64,000 nt of DNA from Salinibacterium sp. SWN248 (lineage in GTDB: Bacteria > Actinomycetota > Actinomycetes > Actinomycetales > Microbacteriaceae). Each line of letters begins with the position of its first letter. The first letter of the stretch is position 1. A program made the position numbers and the translations under genes. Below the pieces are notes generated by a model that was not told the DNA's origin, did not search any database, and saw only the letters and a program-made list of their open reading frames with translations. The stretch covers positions 1-64,000 of the forward strand of contig NZ_JADYWW010000002.1 of assembly GCF_015864575.1 (NCBI RefSeq), in the 5' to 3' direction. Positions 4,236 to 30,976 of the stretch are shown in pieces.

Positions 4236-4610
4236 TGGTGGAGATGGGGGGAATTGAACCCCCGTCCACTGCTGTAATTCTGTGCCTTCTACGGGTGTAT
4301 CTTGTGCAGACGTTCTACTCGGCTTTGATCTTTGCCACAAGCACCTAGATCAACAAGCCCAGCCAGAGTGCAAGTCCCACGTAGCCCTCAGGCGTAACTA
4401 CGCAGCAATCTCTCTAAATTGCGCCAGAATCCGGGTAGAGAGCATTCCCGGTCTGACGGACTTCTTTAGTGCGCTCGCTTAGGCAGCGAGGGCGAAGTCA
4501 GTGCGCTTTGAATTGGCACTTATAGTTTGCAGTCATCGTTAACGAGATAAGGCTGCATTCTCGACCCGCTTCTCACAGTTTTGCAGGCAATGTCGAAACC
4601 GATCATCCCC
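4236..4610 (-). ncRNA. ssrA: transfer-messenger RNA (tmRNA)
   Basis: One-piece tmRNA of about 375 nt on the minus strand. The 5' end GGGGAUG pairs with CAUCUCC just before the encoded ACCA, forming the tRNA-like acceptor stem. The T-arm GGGGGTTCAATTCCCCC lies near the 3' end. The tag reading frame lies at 4479-4517 and gives ANSKRTDFALAA followed by TAA, a degradation tag ending in the canonical LAA. It works with SmpB, encoded 1.2 kb away, to rescue stalled ribosomes. Confidence 0.97.
4479..4517 (-). other. tmRNA tag-peptide reading frame
   Basis: Twelve codons plus stop inside ssrA, resuming at GCC (4515-4517) and ending at TAA (4479-4481). The peptide ANSKRTDFALAA has the actinobacterial form of the tag and the terminal ALAA recognised by ClpXP-type proteases. 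Confidence 0.93.
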
Positions 4611-25437: not shown

Positions 25438-26672
25438 GCGACCGCCTTCAACAGGTGCGAAACCGCGTCGATGCCGGCGGCCCGGAATTTGGAGAGCCGA
25501 GCGGGCACGGCACCCGTGTGGGCGAGTGTGCCGTCCCCGATGCGGAAGAGCAGACTGCTGTCGATAACCCCGTCACTGACCTCACCGGTAAGCGACGAGA
25601 TTTCAACCACACGTCTCGTGCCGTCGGCGGTGAGTTCGCAATGGACCACGACATCCACTGAGCTGGCTACCGTTGGCACCACAAAGCTGGAGTCGATATT
25701 GCGGCCGGCGAGCAGCGGAAGCGTGCACAGTTTCACGAGAGCCTCGCGCGCACTATTGGCGTGGATACTAGACATGCCCGGCAGGCCGCTATTGAGCGCA
25801 ATAAGGAGGTCGAGCGATTCGGCATCGCGTACTTCGCCAACGACAAGTCGTTCGGGGCGCATGCGTAGCGCTTCTTTGATGAGGCGGCGCAGGCTGATCT
25901 CACCGGTCCCCTCGAGGCTGGGTTGGCGGCACTGCATGCCGACGTGGTCGTGGCTGGCAACGTTCAGCTCGAAGGTTTCCTCGACCGTGACGACACGCTC
26001 GTTCGGTCGGGCCGCCGCTAGCAAGGCGTTGAGCATAGTGGTCTTGCCGCTCTGCGTTGCGCCCGAAACCACAATGTTTTGGCCCGACAGCACGCACAGT
26101 CGCAAATAGTCGGCCGCGTGCTGAGTGAGACTGCCGAGTTCGACAAGGCGATCGAGGTCACGGATGCTCCGGCTGAACTTGCGCACGTTCACGGCCCAAT
26201 GGCGCCGGGTGACATCCGGAATCACGACGTGCAGTCGCGAACCATCGGGCAGCGACGCGTCGACGAACGGAGAACTCAAGTCGACGCGGCGACCCGAGGT
26301 TTGAAGCATCCGCTCGACCAGGTCACGAACCTGACCATCAGTGAGACGGATGCCCGTGAACTCGGGAACCCCGTTGCGGGCCACGAATATCTGCTCGGGC
26401 CCGTTAATCCACAGCTCCTCAACGGTGTCATCGTCGAAGAACGGTTGGAGCGGACCATACCCGGTCAACGCCGCCACCACCTCGCGGGCGGCCTGAGCTT
26501 CATCCGCCAGCAACGGCACCGACCCGCCCAGCGCACGCTCGCTGTAGCGACGCACCTCATCACGCACATACCGCGACGCCAGCTCGCTATCGCGCGACAG
26601 ATCGACGCCGTCACGGCGAACCCTCTGGCGAACCTGATCGGCGATGGTCGTCAAAGCGTTAGACATGCTCAT
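25434..26672 (-). CDS. tadA: Tad pilus secretion ATPase TadA (CpaF-type)
   Basis: Hexameric ATPase that powers Flp/Tad pilus assembly; about 412 residues. N-terminal domain to about 130, then the CpaF-type motor: Walker A SGATQSGKTTMLNALL, the Asp box VVTVEETFELNV, the Walker B region RPERLVVGEVRDAESLDLLIALNSG, and the His box GMSSIHANSAREAL. The start is placed at the ATG of MSMSNALTTIADQ (26672); sequence upstream of it has no family character. No tadZ/CpaE gene lies upstream. First gene of tadABC. Confidence 0.9.
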   Translation of the reverse strand: MSMSNALTTIADQVRQRVRRDGVDLSRDSELASRYVRDEVRRYSERALGGSVPLLADEAQAAREVVAALTGYGPLQPFFDDDTVEELWINGPEQIFVARNGVPEFTGIRLTDGQVRDLVERMLQTSGRRVDLSSPFVDASLPDGSRLHVVIPDVTRRHWAVNVRKFSRSIRDLDRLVELGSLTQHAADYLRLCVLSGQNIVVSGATQSGKTTMLNALLAAARPNERVVTVEETFELNVASHDHVGMQCRQPSLEGTGEISLRRLIKEALRMRPERLVVGEVRDAESLDLLIALNSGLPGMSSIHANSAREALVKLCTLPLLAGRNIDSSFVVPTVASSVDVVVHCELTADGTRRVVEISSLTGEVSDGVIDSSLLFRIGDGTLAHTGAVPARLSKFRAAGIDAVSHLLKAVA

Positions 26673-27077
26673 ATTGTGCGGAGTGAGCGCCCGGTGCCGC
26701 CATTGTTGTCCACAGTGGGTACGTTCTCCAACGGGAGGGCTTCTTTCCGACGAGAGCCCTCCTCGACCGCAGATTCCCGACGTCGGCCACACAAACACGA
26801 TACGAGACGCCTAGTTAAGTTCTCCGAACCAGCCCTCGGACGACGTCAGCGAACGCCGACGAAAGAATCGCGCGCCCGAGCCTTGCCCGCATGCGCGGGA
26901 TCAAGGAACGAGACTTTCTGTGTGGAACACAGAGCGGTTTTGAAGTGGCCTTCGCTGTCATCAGGACTAATCTCAAATAGCTTCCCGAAGGGAATTACAA
27001 CCTGCGCTAACAGGGTTCTCGCGCAAAATTTTCGTGCAATTGAATTCATGCGAGTTTTCGTTCCGGGGATCTGAAGG
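26673..27077. other. intergenic region at the left edge of the accessory island
   Basis: 405 bp with no supportable gene. It contains a stem-loop GGAGGGCT (26734-26741) / AGCCCTCC (26755-26762) about 60 bp upstream of tadA, and a 17-bp inverted repeat TCTGTGT-GGA-ACACAGA (26917-26933). From about 26900 toward the island the sequence turns AT-richer. A short open frame on the minus strand (26846-27049) has no recognisable features. No tRNA, integrase or att-like repeat was seen. Confidence 0.5.
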
Positions 27078-28073
27078 TCAAACTTTCAACGACTGGAATT
27101 CCGCCGTCATCACTGACTTAATCACTGCCTTCATCTCCGCCGATACTGTCGTTAGGTTCCTGACGATCTTAGTGCGATCCATAATTTGAACCCTTGTGGA
27201 AGACACGTATTTCATAACACGGTCCTCAGCGTGGTGAGGAATCGCGAGGAAAGGAACGGGCGGCGCAACCTCGCCAAGGAAGGCCTTCCAGTCATCCGGC
27301 ACCGGTTCGAGCGCCTTACCTCGCCAGGAATCGCTTCTCCCGCAGGTTACTTGACAGATAAAATACCATCGCCCTTTGGTAGCGACTTTCCAGTCAAAAA
27401 GCCCGATTAGGTCGACGTCCTCGTCATTTGCGCTTAGACGGCGTAGAGTCGCGTTCGCATCAATCGGGACCTTGAGAAGGCGCCCCACTTCGTTCATGCT
27501 GTCCACGAAGTTCAGTGAACTTGCGCGTGAGATCGGCCCGAGACGACCAACTACCAAACCCGCGTTCTCCATCGCGTCGGCCACGACCTCCTCAAATAGA
27601 TACTCGACGCCTTGGGGGTTTCGGGGCGCCTTAGCAGCCTTAGCAGCCTTAGCAGCCTTAGTACTCTTCGGCGAATCTGAAAGGTTGCCTTTCTTGGATG
27701 CAAACGCGTGTGCCAGCGTGATCGACAACACGGCAACATACGGAGATTCCTCGACAACTCTGCCGTTCTTGAGCTTCAGTGAATTTTCTGAAACGTCGAA
27801 AGGATAAGCATCGTCTAGTAGCGCAGAACGCTGCAGGAGACATGTCCAAGCCTCGTCGGCTAGGTCAGTAACCACCCACTCCGGCTGAGCTTCGGTAGTG
27901 GTCGGGTCGAAGAGAATTTCTTTCTTTCTGGAAAATAGTTCACCTATGAGATCGCGCAATGACTCCCGTCTCGCCTTCTCTCGATGCAGTGCGAGAAGCT
28001 CCATGTAATCAGCGAAAAAGCTCGCTCGAATGAGATTCCCATAGCTGTCAACATCGGGCTCAATCTTTCTCAT
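27078..28073 (-). CDS. unrecognised protein, candidate restriction endonuclease
   Basis: Not recognised as a named family. In the 331 residues: a helical N-terminal part (1-125), an Ala-Lys linker (about 139-149) encoded by a 9-bp tandem repeat, then an alpha/beta domain. That domain has VEYLFEEVVADAMENAGL (157-173), DEDVDLIGLFDWK (217-229) and, after a Gly turn, WYFICQVTCG (236-245) with SDSWRGK. The order Glu-helix, Asp on a strand, then Gln-x-x on the next strand resembles PD-(D/E)XK nucleases that use Q in place of D/E. It overlaps the ParB-domain gene by 14 bp and lies in a cytosine methyltransferase operon, so a nuclease role is inferred. Composition is AT-richer than the flanks. Confidence 0.5.
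   Translation of the reverse strand: MRKIEPDVDSYGNLIRASFFADYMELLALHREKARRESLRDLIGELFSRKKEILFDPTTTEAQPEWVVTDLADEAWTCLLQRSALLDDAYPFDVSENSLKLKNGRVVEESPYVAVLSITLAHAFASKKGNLSDSPKSTKAAKAAKAAKAPRNPQGVEYLFEEVVADAMENAGLVVGRLGPISRASSLNFVDSMNEVGRLLKVPIDANATLRRLSANDEDVDLIGLFDWKVATKGRWYFICQVTCGRSDSWRGKALEPVPDDWKAFLGEVAPPVPFLAIPHHAEDRVMKYVSSTRVQIMDRTKIVRNLTTVSAEMKAVIKSVMTAEFQSLKV
27630..27658. repeat. 9-bp tandem repeat in the linker of the candidate nuclease
   Basis: Three full copies of CTTAGCAGC plus a partial fourth, encoding Ala-Ala-Lys repeats. Copy-number change keeps the frame and alters only linker length. Confidence 0.8.
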
Positions 28074-29178
28074 GAAGTCGACTCCCGACGACCGCGTTCA
28101 GGTTTTTGGCCGCCGTCAGCAGACTCCCTGCCACGGCCACTTCATCGGCCCCAATCTCAAAGGAGTCCACCGATTGAGTCAGAATCTCGACAGATTTCGC
28201 AATATCTCCCGCACGCTTCGTAAAGGTCTGCCTGTCGACAATTTGATAGGCGAGATCGAGATCCCCATGGGCAGTGAGTGCGTTCCGGGCCACATTGTCG
28301 GCAATCACTTGCCCGTATCGAGTAGCGTCACGGGAGTCCTGCAGTACCGCAAGACGCCCTCCGGGAGGTGGGAGAAGATCGCTTAGCACTCTAAGGAGAT
28401 TGTCTATGCGAAGCGCACCCATGCTTTTGATGACACTCTCGTAATCCAACGCGTCAGCGAGACCGATGAATTCGCGCACTTCAGCGCTATTCAGGAGTCG
28501 ATTCCAAACCCCAAATCGATCGCGGAGTACGGAAGTTGCCAATTTGTTCAGAGAATCAACATCGCGCGCGGCCCGGAGAACTTTGAGTGCGATGAACGGA
28601 CCTCTCACTCCGAGAGCATTCGTGCCAACCCGCTTACCTACATCCTTGAAAGGGTTCGAGCTACCCTCGCGAGCCGCGGAATCTACTTCGACCTCCAAAT
28701 AGCGCGCTTTCGCTTCAGGCTTCCATGTCTTTAGACCCCCGATATGACGGAATCCCAGAAATTTTCGGACGTCGTCCTCGTGATCGACCACAAGGCAAGG
28801 GACTTCCCATAGCCGAGCGAGTTGGTCCTTTGTTGGCTCTACCTCGAAATCGAAGTTGACATCCGCTTCTTTGGCAGCTGGCAGCTGAAGAAGAATACTT
28901 AGAGTTGCGAAACGCCTATTTCCCTCGACGACGACGTACGGAGCTCCTCCGTTCGTGGCTTTGACCACGAGCGGTTCATGAGCGAAAAATCCGTTTGCGA
29001 GCATTGATGAAGCAAGCTCTTCCAAAGTCTCGGACTCTTCAAGCCACTCGAGCAGCTCTGGGGGGGTCTTCCCGAGAAGTTCCTCCGGCAAACGAGGGTT
29101 TTGGGGGTCAAGGAGCAACTCTTCGACCCTGAGTTTTTGAATAACAGGCGTTTTGACATCAAACACTTTCTGACTCAT
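28060..29178 (-). CDS. ParB/Srx-fold domain protein of the methyltransferase island
   Basis: Protein of 372 residues. The N-terminal domain (about 12-115) looks like a ParB N-terminal/sulfiredoxin-fold domain: LLLDPQNPRLPEE, then ELASSMLANGFFAHEPLVV, and VVEGNRRFATLSILLQ, whose EGNRR takes the place of the ParB (E/D)GxRR box. The rest is mainly helical with no recognised domain. Such domains bind DNA, hydrolyse CTP or act as nucleases, and recur in defence islands. It is too short of typical ParB features (no clear HTH) to be the chromosomal ParB. It lies between the methyltransferase and the candidate nuclease, 35 bp from the former, overlapping the latter. Confidence 0.65.
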   Translation of the reverse strand: MSQKVFDVKTPVIQKLRVEELLLDPQNPRLPEELLGKTPPELLEWLEESETLEELASSMLANGFFAHEPLVVKATNGGAPYVVVEGNRRFATLSILLQLPAAKEADVNFDFEVEPTKDQLARLWEVPCLVVDHEDDVRKFLGFRHIGGLKTWKPEAKARYLEVEVDSAAREGSSNPFKDVGKRVGTNALGVRGPFIALKVLRAARDVDSLNKLATSVLRDRFGVWNRLLNSAEVREFIGLADALDYESVIKSMGALRIDNLLRVLSDLLPPPGGRLAVLQDSRDATRYGQVIADNVARNALTAHGDLDLAYQIVDRQTFTKRAGDIAKSVEILTQSVDSFEIGADEVAVAGSLLTAAKNLNAVVGSRLHEKD

Positions 29179-29213
29179 TTCGATTCATCCCGCTCGGCTA
29201 CTTCAACGACACT

Positions 29214-30431
29214 CTAATCTGCATTCGCTACCTGTGAAGAGACCGCAGCCGGACCAAGGCCTTCACCAGCATGGGCTTTCTTCGGTCCTCGCATGTTAGC
29301 GAAACGTTCAGGAATTGGTGAAGGCTCAAGGGGCGCTGGGACCAACTCAGCCTTCCGGCTTCGAAGGAGCGCGTGCGGCGCAGAAGGTCGATCGCCGCAA
29401 GGCCTGAGACACGCGGCCAGCTGTCGGCCAACCACCTCGGCAAGAAGGGCGGGCGTCGCGTTCCCCGCCTGCTTGGTCTGTGCGCGATACTCGCCTGAGA
29501 GTTGCCATGCGTCAGGAAAGGTCTGCAGCCGCAACTGTTCACGTACGCTGAGAGGACGATTATCCCAGTGGAACGGCCCGGTCGAGGGCCCCGGCGATGC
29601 GGAAAGAGTCCACGAAGGCCGGTCTTTAGCGAGCTTCAACAAGAAGTTCCAGTACTTGGTGCGATAACCGAAGATCTCATCTCCGCCTCCGCGTTTAGTC
29701 AACCATTGATAATTCTGGCCCTCCGGAATACTCGGGAGCAATTCGGCCCATTTTCCGTTGGGTTCCGGCAGATCGCCCGGAGGAAGATCCGACAATACAT
29801 CCCACGCGCGCACATAGCTTCCCAAGTGCGTGGGCTTCGGCCATTCCCACGGGATACCATCCCGCAAAGCGACCACAATGACTCTGCGTCGGTTCTGCGG
29901 CACGCCGTAGTCAGCAGCGTTGAGTAACCGCCAGTGCACGGAATATTCGACCCCAGCATGTTGCCCGATAATGCCAAGCTGTTCCTCGAGATAACCGATC
30001 GCGGCCCCCTTGCCGCTCACGAAACCCAAAACATTCTCCATCAGAATCGCTTTAGGGAGAAAAGTGCCAACCAGCCGCATCGTCGCATCTACGGTGCGAG
30101 CACGCTCATCTCGCATGCCTTGCCGCCCAGTTGTTGCCCATTGCGCTGCCGCAGAAAAAGGCTGGCACGGCGGACCACCGGCCAGCAGATCTAACTCCCC
30201 AGTTTTTAAGCCAAGATCCTCAGGCCTTAAATATTGAGCGACGCTTGTGATATCGCCATCACCGATCATTTTCCAGCTGGGCCTATTCAGCCGAAGCGTT
30301 GCGCGGGCGGTCTCGTCAATCTCGATACAACCGACGTTCTCAAACCCAGCTTCCTCGAGACCAAGGTCCATTCCACCCGCTCCCGAAAACAAAGAAAGCA
30401 CTTTTAGCGGACTCGGATTCGGCACAGACAA
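29214..30431 (-). CDS. C5-cytosine DNA methyltransferase
   Basis: Transfers a methyl group from S-adenosylmethionine to C5 of cytosine in DNA; 405 residues. All key motifs are present: I LSLFSGAGGMDLGLEEAG, IV GGPPCQPFS with the catalytic Cys, VI MENV, VIII QNRRRV, and X AGNATP. Start: TTG at 30431, with GGAGGA 6 nt upstream; the frame is open to a TTG at 30503 but that has no binding site. The target recognition region (about 230-330) does not reveal the site. First gene of the three-gene island operon. Codon use and composition are AT-richer than the flanking genes, which suggests horizontal transfer. Confidence 0.93.
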   Translation of the reverse strand: MSVPNPSPLKVLSLFSGAGGMDLGLEEAGFENVGCIEIDETARATLRLNRPSWKMIGDGDITSVAQYLRPEDLGLKTGELDLLAGGPPCQPFSAAAQWATTGRQGMRDERARTVDATMRLVGTFLPKAILMENVLGFVSGKGAAIGYLEEQLGIIGQHAGVEYSVHWRLLNAADYGVPQNRRRVIVVALRDGIPWEWPKPTHLGSYVRAWDVLSDLPPGDLPEPNGKWAELLPSIPEGQNYQWLTKRGGGDEIFGYRTKYWNFLLKLAKDRPSWTLSASPGPSTGPFHWDNRPLSVREQLRLQTFPDAWQLSGEYRAQTKQAGNATPALLAEVVGRQLAACLRPCGDRPSAPHALLRSRKAELVPAPLEPSPIPERFANMRGPKKAHAGEGLGPAAVSSQVANAD

Positions 30432-30976
30432 CAGCGCTCCTCCCAATGTAAGTTTCCTAGCTTGGACGGCCAGAAAAATATCACTCCTGAGCGGAACCGA
30501 CAATAACCATTATCGCGGACGCGGTTCACATCTGAAAACCGCATTTCCCAAGCATCGGACCGCGAAGAAAGCTGCATAACTCCACTCGACCAGCCCCCGC
30601 CACTCAAGCCGAAATGAGCGGGCTGCTGAATCGGAATTCCAGACCGACTACCTGAATACCGGTGCTGCTCTTCTTACGAGTCGAACTACTTAATTGGATT
30701 GGATGTTGTTTGTGTTTAGGTTGTCGTCTTCTCACGCTCGGAATTTCGGAGCGCCCGCAGCGCAGCCGTGGCGTGGGCCGACGGCGGCCACTCCGAAAGC
30801 CTTCGTTCGTGCAGGAATATCGACATTCTCCGCGCGCTCGCCACCCCACTTAGAGCTTAACCTTTGGACGCAACCTCATGCTGATATGATGATTACATCA
30901 ATTCAGCAAGCGGGCGATTGCTTGCTGTCAGAGCCACAGCGCAACCGCATCGCACGCACCGATCAGGAGCACATGA
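30432..30976. other. AT-richer intergenic region at the right edge of the island
   Basis: 545 bp. No gene is supported: the open frames present (for example 30604-30849 minus and 30694-30993 plus) show no recognisable motif and no good start. The methyltransferase promoter should lie in about 30440-30560. From about 30840 onward it contains the arsR promoter, listed separately. No integrase, transposase or flanking direct repeat was seen. Confidence 0.5.
30864..30900 (+). promoter_or_regulatory. arsR-sulP promoter with overlapping inverted repeat
   Basis: -35 TTGGAC (30864-30869), 15-nt spacer, -10 TATGAT (30885-30890). An inverted repeat TGATG-ATTA-CATCA (30887-30900) overlaps the -10 box and the expected start of transcription, the usual position for an ArsR-family repressor site. 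The ArsR gene starts 77 bp downstream, so autoregulation is likely. Confidence 0.55.

Follow-up and report, generated by a model that had tools for sequence, protein, structure and literature searches.

What does a C5-cytosine DNA methyltransferase (MTase) do in a row with a ParB-like protein and a third protein of no recognized family? The question is raised by a three-gene cassette of Salinibacterium sp. SWN248 that lies in the first 64,000 nucleotides of contig NZ_JADYWW010000002.1; this whole stretch is the window of our analysis (Table 1). The cassette is probably a horizontally acquired defense locus of the restriction-modification kind, in which the MTase would mark DNA while the ParB-like protein (P0002) and a PD-(D/E)XK-like protein (P0003) would act as the restriction arm. 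In the best reading of the data, this arm would be able to work with either base methylation or phosphorothioation.

Table 1. Features of the cassette and of the block that carries it (positions in the window)
Feature	Position	Strand	Remarks
C5-cytosine DNA methyltransferase	29214..30503	-	429 aa as listed; PF00145 E 4.6e-54, TIGR00675 above cut-off
ParB/Srx-fold NTPase-like protein (P0002)	28060..29178	-	372 aa; helix-turn-helix and C-terminal helices
Predicted PD-(D/E)XK-fold nuclease (P0003)	27078..28073	-	331 aa; partner of the ParB-like protein
Inserted block carrying the cassette, between tadA and arsR-sulP	26716..30880		congener flanks; GC 55.1%

The cassette and its three proteins

A preliminary description of the window, made from the sequence alone, had reported a three-gene operon with a 35-bp gap between the MTase and ParB genes and a 14-bp overlap between the ParB and P0003 genes. 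This is exactly what we found, with all three genes on the minus strand. The AT-richer block that it placed at 26890 to 30860 was located correctly, and its bounds were refined to approximately those in Table 1, with a GC content of 55.1% compared to 62.2% in the remaining window. Similarly, the GC content at third codon positions is 0.54 to 0.58 in the three cassette genes versus 0.71 to 0.84 in the five flanking genes measured. The block is absent from four same-genus genomes (G672, G673, G668, and G674), in which the matching flanks are 61 to 100 bp apart. In a fifth congener, G664, only the right flank matched and the left flank is absent, which makes this genome uninformative on insertion. 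No fourth gene was recognized in the block, the small open reading frames (ORFs) of which were not searched against libraries. A boundary k-mer scan comparing positions 26650 to 26780 with 30781 to 30960 gave no shared word of ≥9 bases, direct or inverted, and no target-site duplication stood out. Close cassettes with the same gene order and with related proteins, respectively, were found in Microterricola pindariensis (MTase, 75% identical; ParB, 77%; third protein, 63%) and in Microbacterium sp. Leaf320 (62%, 60%, and 49%). As a separate observation, G664 carries the window's ArsR region as two similar copies near sulP (L147, 1276 to 4809), and the best tadA-like match in its genome is only 36% identical.

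The MTase is an intact member of its family, with PF00145 and TIGR00675 matched above their cut-offs, as looked for in a type II restriction-modification system. Its start is probably some 24 codons downstream of the listed TTG, near position 30431, because the 75%-identical Microterricola relative aligns only from residue 25.

P0002 matched the ParB profiles of Pfam and NCBIfam below their cut-offs, and its predicted fold resembles ParB, KorB, and Noc, with a ParB-type N-terminal NTPase domain followed by a helix-turn-helix. The canonical P-motif of ParB proteins is GERR; P0002 has EGNRR instead. EGNRR is kept in 11/11 members chosen independently of the motif, and its presence in all 65 proteins of alignment A4 is by construction, since the scan pattern that collected them requires it. 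According to an excerpt of PMC12704722, the nucleotide bound by other proteins of the ParB fold can be ATP, CTP, or GTP. A scan of viral contigs with the P0002 pattern found no relative.

P0003 has no family match in Pfam, NCBIfam, or PADLOC. The preliminary description had supposed it to be a nuclease, and structure prediction points the same way: the AlphaFold2 model (pLDDT, 89.8) has a predicted fold that matches nucleases and resembles PD-(D/E)XK, and the best Foldseek match is MspJI/Mrr-like. D221, Q241, and K253 are invariant in the 64 aligned relatives of alignment A3. These three residues and the acidic residue 217 are also kept in 18/18 further full-length rows outside A3, three of which come from phages and three of which are near-copies of A3 rows. 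Among the other eight rows, which are fragments or split ORFs, one piece from locus L060 shows all four residues and seven are not fully readable. The triad is a variant: the usual pattern has Asp and, on the following strand, (E/Q)xK, but here the invariant lysine is K253 and not the residue two positions after the glutamine. The motif of MspJI is D...QAK. P0003 has the same acidic-x-G-x-D pattern followed by Q as MspJI/Mrr-like endonucleases; in contrast to MspJI, it lacks QxK, its invariant lysine is shifted into the next helix, and no second DNA-reading domain was recognized. Altogether, P0003 resembles nucleases of the PD-(D/E)XK type, with D221, Q241, and K253 as its putative active site. 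At an E value of 0.01, PADLOC models matched 0/64 nuclease relatives, and the weak Pfam matches of single relatives (CapR in 3/64 and SduA_N in 1/64) were not used. A short in-frame repeat, AKAAKAAKAAK, at positions 27625 to 27670 falls within a low-confidence linker of P0003, and the aligned relatives are mostly gapped there.

Pairing of the ParB-like and nuclease genes and exchange of their modification partners

Used alone as a query, P0003 recovered only itself from 394 genomes of the same class and no relative from plasmids and viral contigs; a PDB sequence search gave nothing meaningful for either P0003 (best E, 0.73) or P0002 (best E, 0.75). Relatives of P0003 were reached only via weak ParB matches in plasmid records and class genomes, together with the genes downstream of those matches. 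In 6/7 weak ParB relatives examined, the next gene downstream encodes some 280 to 340 residues, and the encoded proteins align with P0003. We then scanned one genome per species (84,980 species) with a pattern from the ParB alignment that includes EGNRR, and the best 80 of at least 555 confirmed ParB relatives were taken as the locus set. A nuclease-family gene, identified by profile and in some cases fragmented or truncated at a contig end, directly follows the ParB gene in 77 of these 80 loci; in the other three (L043, L068, and L092), the contig ends inside the ParB gene. Moreover, when the window protein and its two closest relatives were left out of the nuclease profile, the window protein was still recovered at 1.4e-48. 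With this profile, 86/87 matches were ≤500 bp from a ParB gene, the remaining one being a piece of the split gene in L031, and reversed decoys gave no match.

The pairing also held in the reverse direction. The nuclease-family profile matched in 4/394 class genomes and 2/296 phylum genomes, amounting to five distinct genomes, and in all five a ParB gene adjoins the nuclease-family gene. One genome, G115, is an exception in having the ParB gene and no third gene, and the third gene is likewise missing beside larger proteins that have only the ParB domain in common (L023 to L025). Across 43 triples, divergence was correlated most strongly between ParB and nuclease (r = 0.89, compared to 0.68 for ParB and MTase and 0.70 for nuclease and MTase). 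The pair was found in records from 17 named phyla, many of them metagenome-assembled genomes; in several records, the annotation of the ParB protein reads partition or ParB-domain protein, and that of the partner reads hypothetical. The three-gene arrangement is not due to chance, and on comparative grounds the ParB-like protein and P0003 are a near-obligate pair and the tightest unit of the cassette. ParB, nuclease, or MTase genes look split into two ORFs in L031, L055, L060, L085, and L091, which seems to reflect either decay of the cassette in some hosts or assembly errors.

Three near-copies (L051, L073, and L090) were removed from the 80 loci before the counts that follow, which cover 78 loci with the window included. 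A C5-MTase gene is nearby in 56/78 loci, and in 42 of the 56 it lies on the same strand within 250 bp. The phosphorothioation genes dndC and dndD are present in nine loci, all without a C5-MTase; thus, the two kinds of modification gene occur together in 0/78 loci (hypergeometric P = 2.7e-6, uncorrected for ancestry). At least two switches between C5 and Dnd were counted on the ParB tree. Where Dnd genes replace the MTase, or where the MTase sits on the other strand, the ParB and nuclease genes remain together. This exchange between 5-methylcytosine (5mC) and phosphorothioation is a hint that no single chemistry is read directly by the pair. Vsr-like genes are found in 11/78 loci. The recurrence elsewhere that the preliminary description had named as a check was therefore borne out, and comparative genomics also supports its view of the ParB-like protein as an obligate component, with the amendment that the tightest unit is ParB plus nuclease and that the modification partner can change.

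Individual loci extend this picture. In L072 (1685 to 9897), the pair comes directly after dndG and a long presumed dndH, and in L100 (526 to 10068) one ORF separates it from these two genes; here it may add to a DndFGH restriction module. In L022 (2677 to 8387), a C5-MTase close to the pair is accompanied by the gene for a NaeI-type endonuclease (PF09126, E 2.8e-105), so that this locus holds two restriction units side by side. On a Vibrio campbellii replicon (L016, 5956 to 9115), the pair is immediately beside an oppositely oriented gene for a D12-class adenine MTase, which may be a third type of modification partner. Dnd neighborhoods were surveyed in 2024, with many associated nucleases reported as well as cytosine methylases that replace phosphorothioation; in the part of that text consulted, the ParB-nuclease pair is not described (PMC10853773).

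Related systems and prophage copies

The same three components as in the window cassette are found in phage WΦ, in which gp98 is the ParB protein, gp96 the third protein with the D-Q-K triad kept, and Mth a DNA cytosine methylase. The two nucleases share 18% identity, and the WΦ MTase gene is convergent rather than upstream. Eleven phage records match a nuclease-family member, and the same 11 match the window ParB protein; for one of them (MT835579, unannotated), the best places listed for the two proteins fall on different strands. In the two other annotated phage records examined, a C5-MTase likewise comes next. Counted by sequence coverage, the WΦ or 12474II version is present in P2-like prophages of 139/5,426 complete Escherichia coli genomes, with ≥80% of the query covered in 103 genomes for WΦ and in 36 for 12474II. 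In the E. coli W prophage, the trio is flanked by the portal gene on one side and the replication-endonuclease gene on the other, an interval that is described as a P2 defense hotspot in a passage of PMC9519451. In PHROGs, phrog_3694 holds WΦ gp98 as well as the window's ParB protein, with a nearly full-length match for P0002, and gp96 falls in phrog_3984, which P0003 matches weakly (3e-6, residues 68 to 125, outside the putative active site). Both groups are listed as being of unknown function, and gp98 and gp96 are without functional annotation.

As the preliminary description had suspected, no named system in the libraries searched (Pfam, NCBIfam, PADLOC, and PHROGs) has this composition, and the ParB protein alone resembles known entries. 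Its relatives match PD-Lambda-5_A in 65/65 cases and the phage defense candidate PDC-M38A in 65/65 cases. PD-Lambda-5_A is matched only over about the first 160 of its 430 to 500 positions; since the ParB domain alone is shared and a whole-length match is lacking, we rejected an assignment to PD-λ-5. PDC-M38A is about twice as long as the window-type ParB protein, and its matches span positions 57 to 235 of 715 for P0002 and 58 to 342 of 715 for WΦ gp98. None of the PADLOC models matches the nuclease, and no mention of PDC-M38 was found in the open-license literature of PubMed Central (PMC).

In overall plan, two further groups come nearest to the cassette. CglI/NgoAVII is likewise a three-gene set of C5-MTase, nuclease, and NTP-using partner, as described in an excerpt of PMC4267653. 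SspE and DndI resemble the pair in joining a ParB-like NTPase domain to a nuclease with a link to phosphorothioation (PMC11662687, in part); however, they are single proteins, and DndI has a DGQQR motif and an HNH domain, whereas the window-type pair consists of two genes with EGNRR, a PD-(D/E)XK-like partner, and usually a C5-MTase. DUF262 and HNH (DUF1524) do not occur together in one protein here, as they do in SspE/DndI/GmrSD, and neither P0002 nor P0003 matches DUF262 or HNH/DUF1524 above the cut-offs of Pfam and NCBIfam. In a survey of HEPN proteins, genes for a ParB nuclease and a DNA methylase are placed next to one HEPN family, and the excerpt consulted names no partner like P0003 (PMC3710099). 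The words ParB, methylase, and methyltransferase do not occur in the main text of Rousset 2022 (PMC9122126). No description of the ParB-nuclease pair was found in open-license PMC literature, subscription papers being outside this scope. Novelty is accordingly provisional.

Possible modes of action

If the cassette is a restriction-modification-like defense, the MTase would mark the cytosines of a particular site in the host's DNA, and the ParB-like protein would bind nucleotide via EGNRR and DNA via its helix-turn-helix. At unmarked target DNA, it would recruit or activate the nuclease, leading to cutting. We infer each of the enzymatic steps, the discrimination by modification, and the protection against phages. 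A more specific form, which we put forward tentatively, is a modification-agnostic module: a clamp of the ParB type, switched by a nucleotide, would be loaded where a site is unmarked, would perhaps slide, and would bring in the separate PD-(D/E)XK-like nuclease. The repeated coupling of the pair to cytosine methylation or phosphorothioation would then mean that the module reads the absence of protection and not one chemistry.

The resemblance to SspE and DndI raises the alternative of modification-stimulated restriction, in which the ParB-fold protein senses the host mark and the nuclease then attacks unmarked DNA. We consider this unlikely, as it requires a single conserved pair to recognize 5mC as well as backbone sulfur; moreover, no dedicated modification-reading domain was recognized, although no detailed test was made. 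An ordinary two-gene type II system, in which the nuclease cuts alone and the ParB-like protein is a controller-like regulator, would suit the predicted helix-turn-helix and the typical C5 enzyme. Such a regulator would hardly be expected to stay with the nuclease when Dnd genes replace the MTase or the MTase is on the other strand, or to keep EGNRR in members not selected for this motif, and the conservation of the pair in 77/80 loci argues against a type II endonuclease that has no NTP-using partner. We therefore give this explanation little credence, although it and modification-stimulated restriction are the main rivals of our reading.

It is also rather improbable that ParB and nuclease are an abortive-infection (Abi) pair, acting like a toxin to kill the infected cell while the MTase serves another purpose. 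The N-terminal ParB domain does resemble PD-Lambda-5_A, and PD-Lambda-5 appears to its authors to be a compacted prophage version of a restriction-modification plus Abi system (PMC9519451, in part). Furthermore, the MTase close by in L022 comes with a separate NaeI-type partner. On the other hand, the tight and alternative linkage of the pair to DNA modification modules is better explained by self/non-self marking. Finally, a plasmid or phage partition locus, or a regulatory one, with no role in defense is very improbable despite the partition annotations noted above: the partner has a predicted nuclease fold, an MTase is present, and the E. coli W copy occupies a P2 defense hotspot, and we rejected a partition role because ParA is no recurrent neighbor, being found in none of the ten other neighbor clusters (≥3 loci each) when representatives were scanned with Pfam and PADLOC.

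If the pair is indeed the restriction arm of DNA modification systems, some apparently orphan C5-MTases would be explained, and a ParB-type switch would be added to the known ways of controlling restriction. It would also raise the question of how one cutting module can serve two marks, one on the base and one on the backbone.

Elsewhere in the window, positions 4236 to 4610 hold a tmRNA gene with the tag ANSKRTDFALAA.
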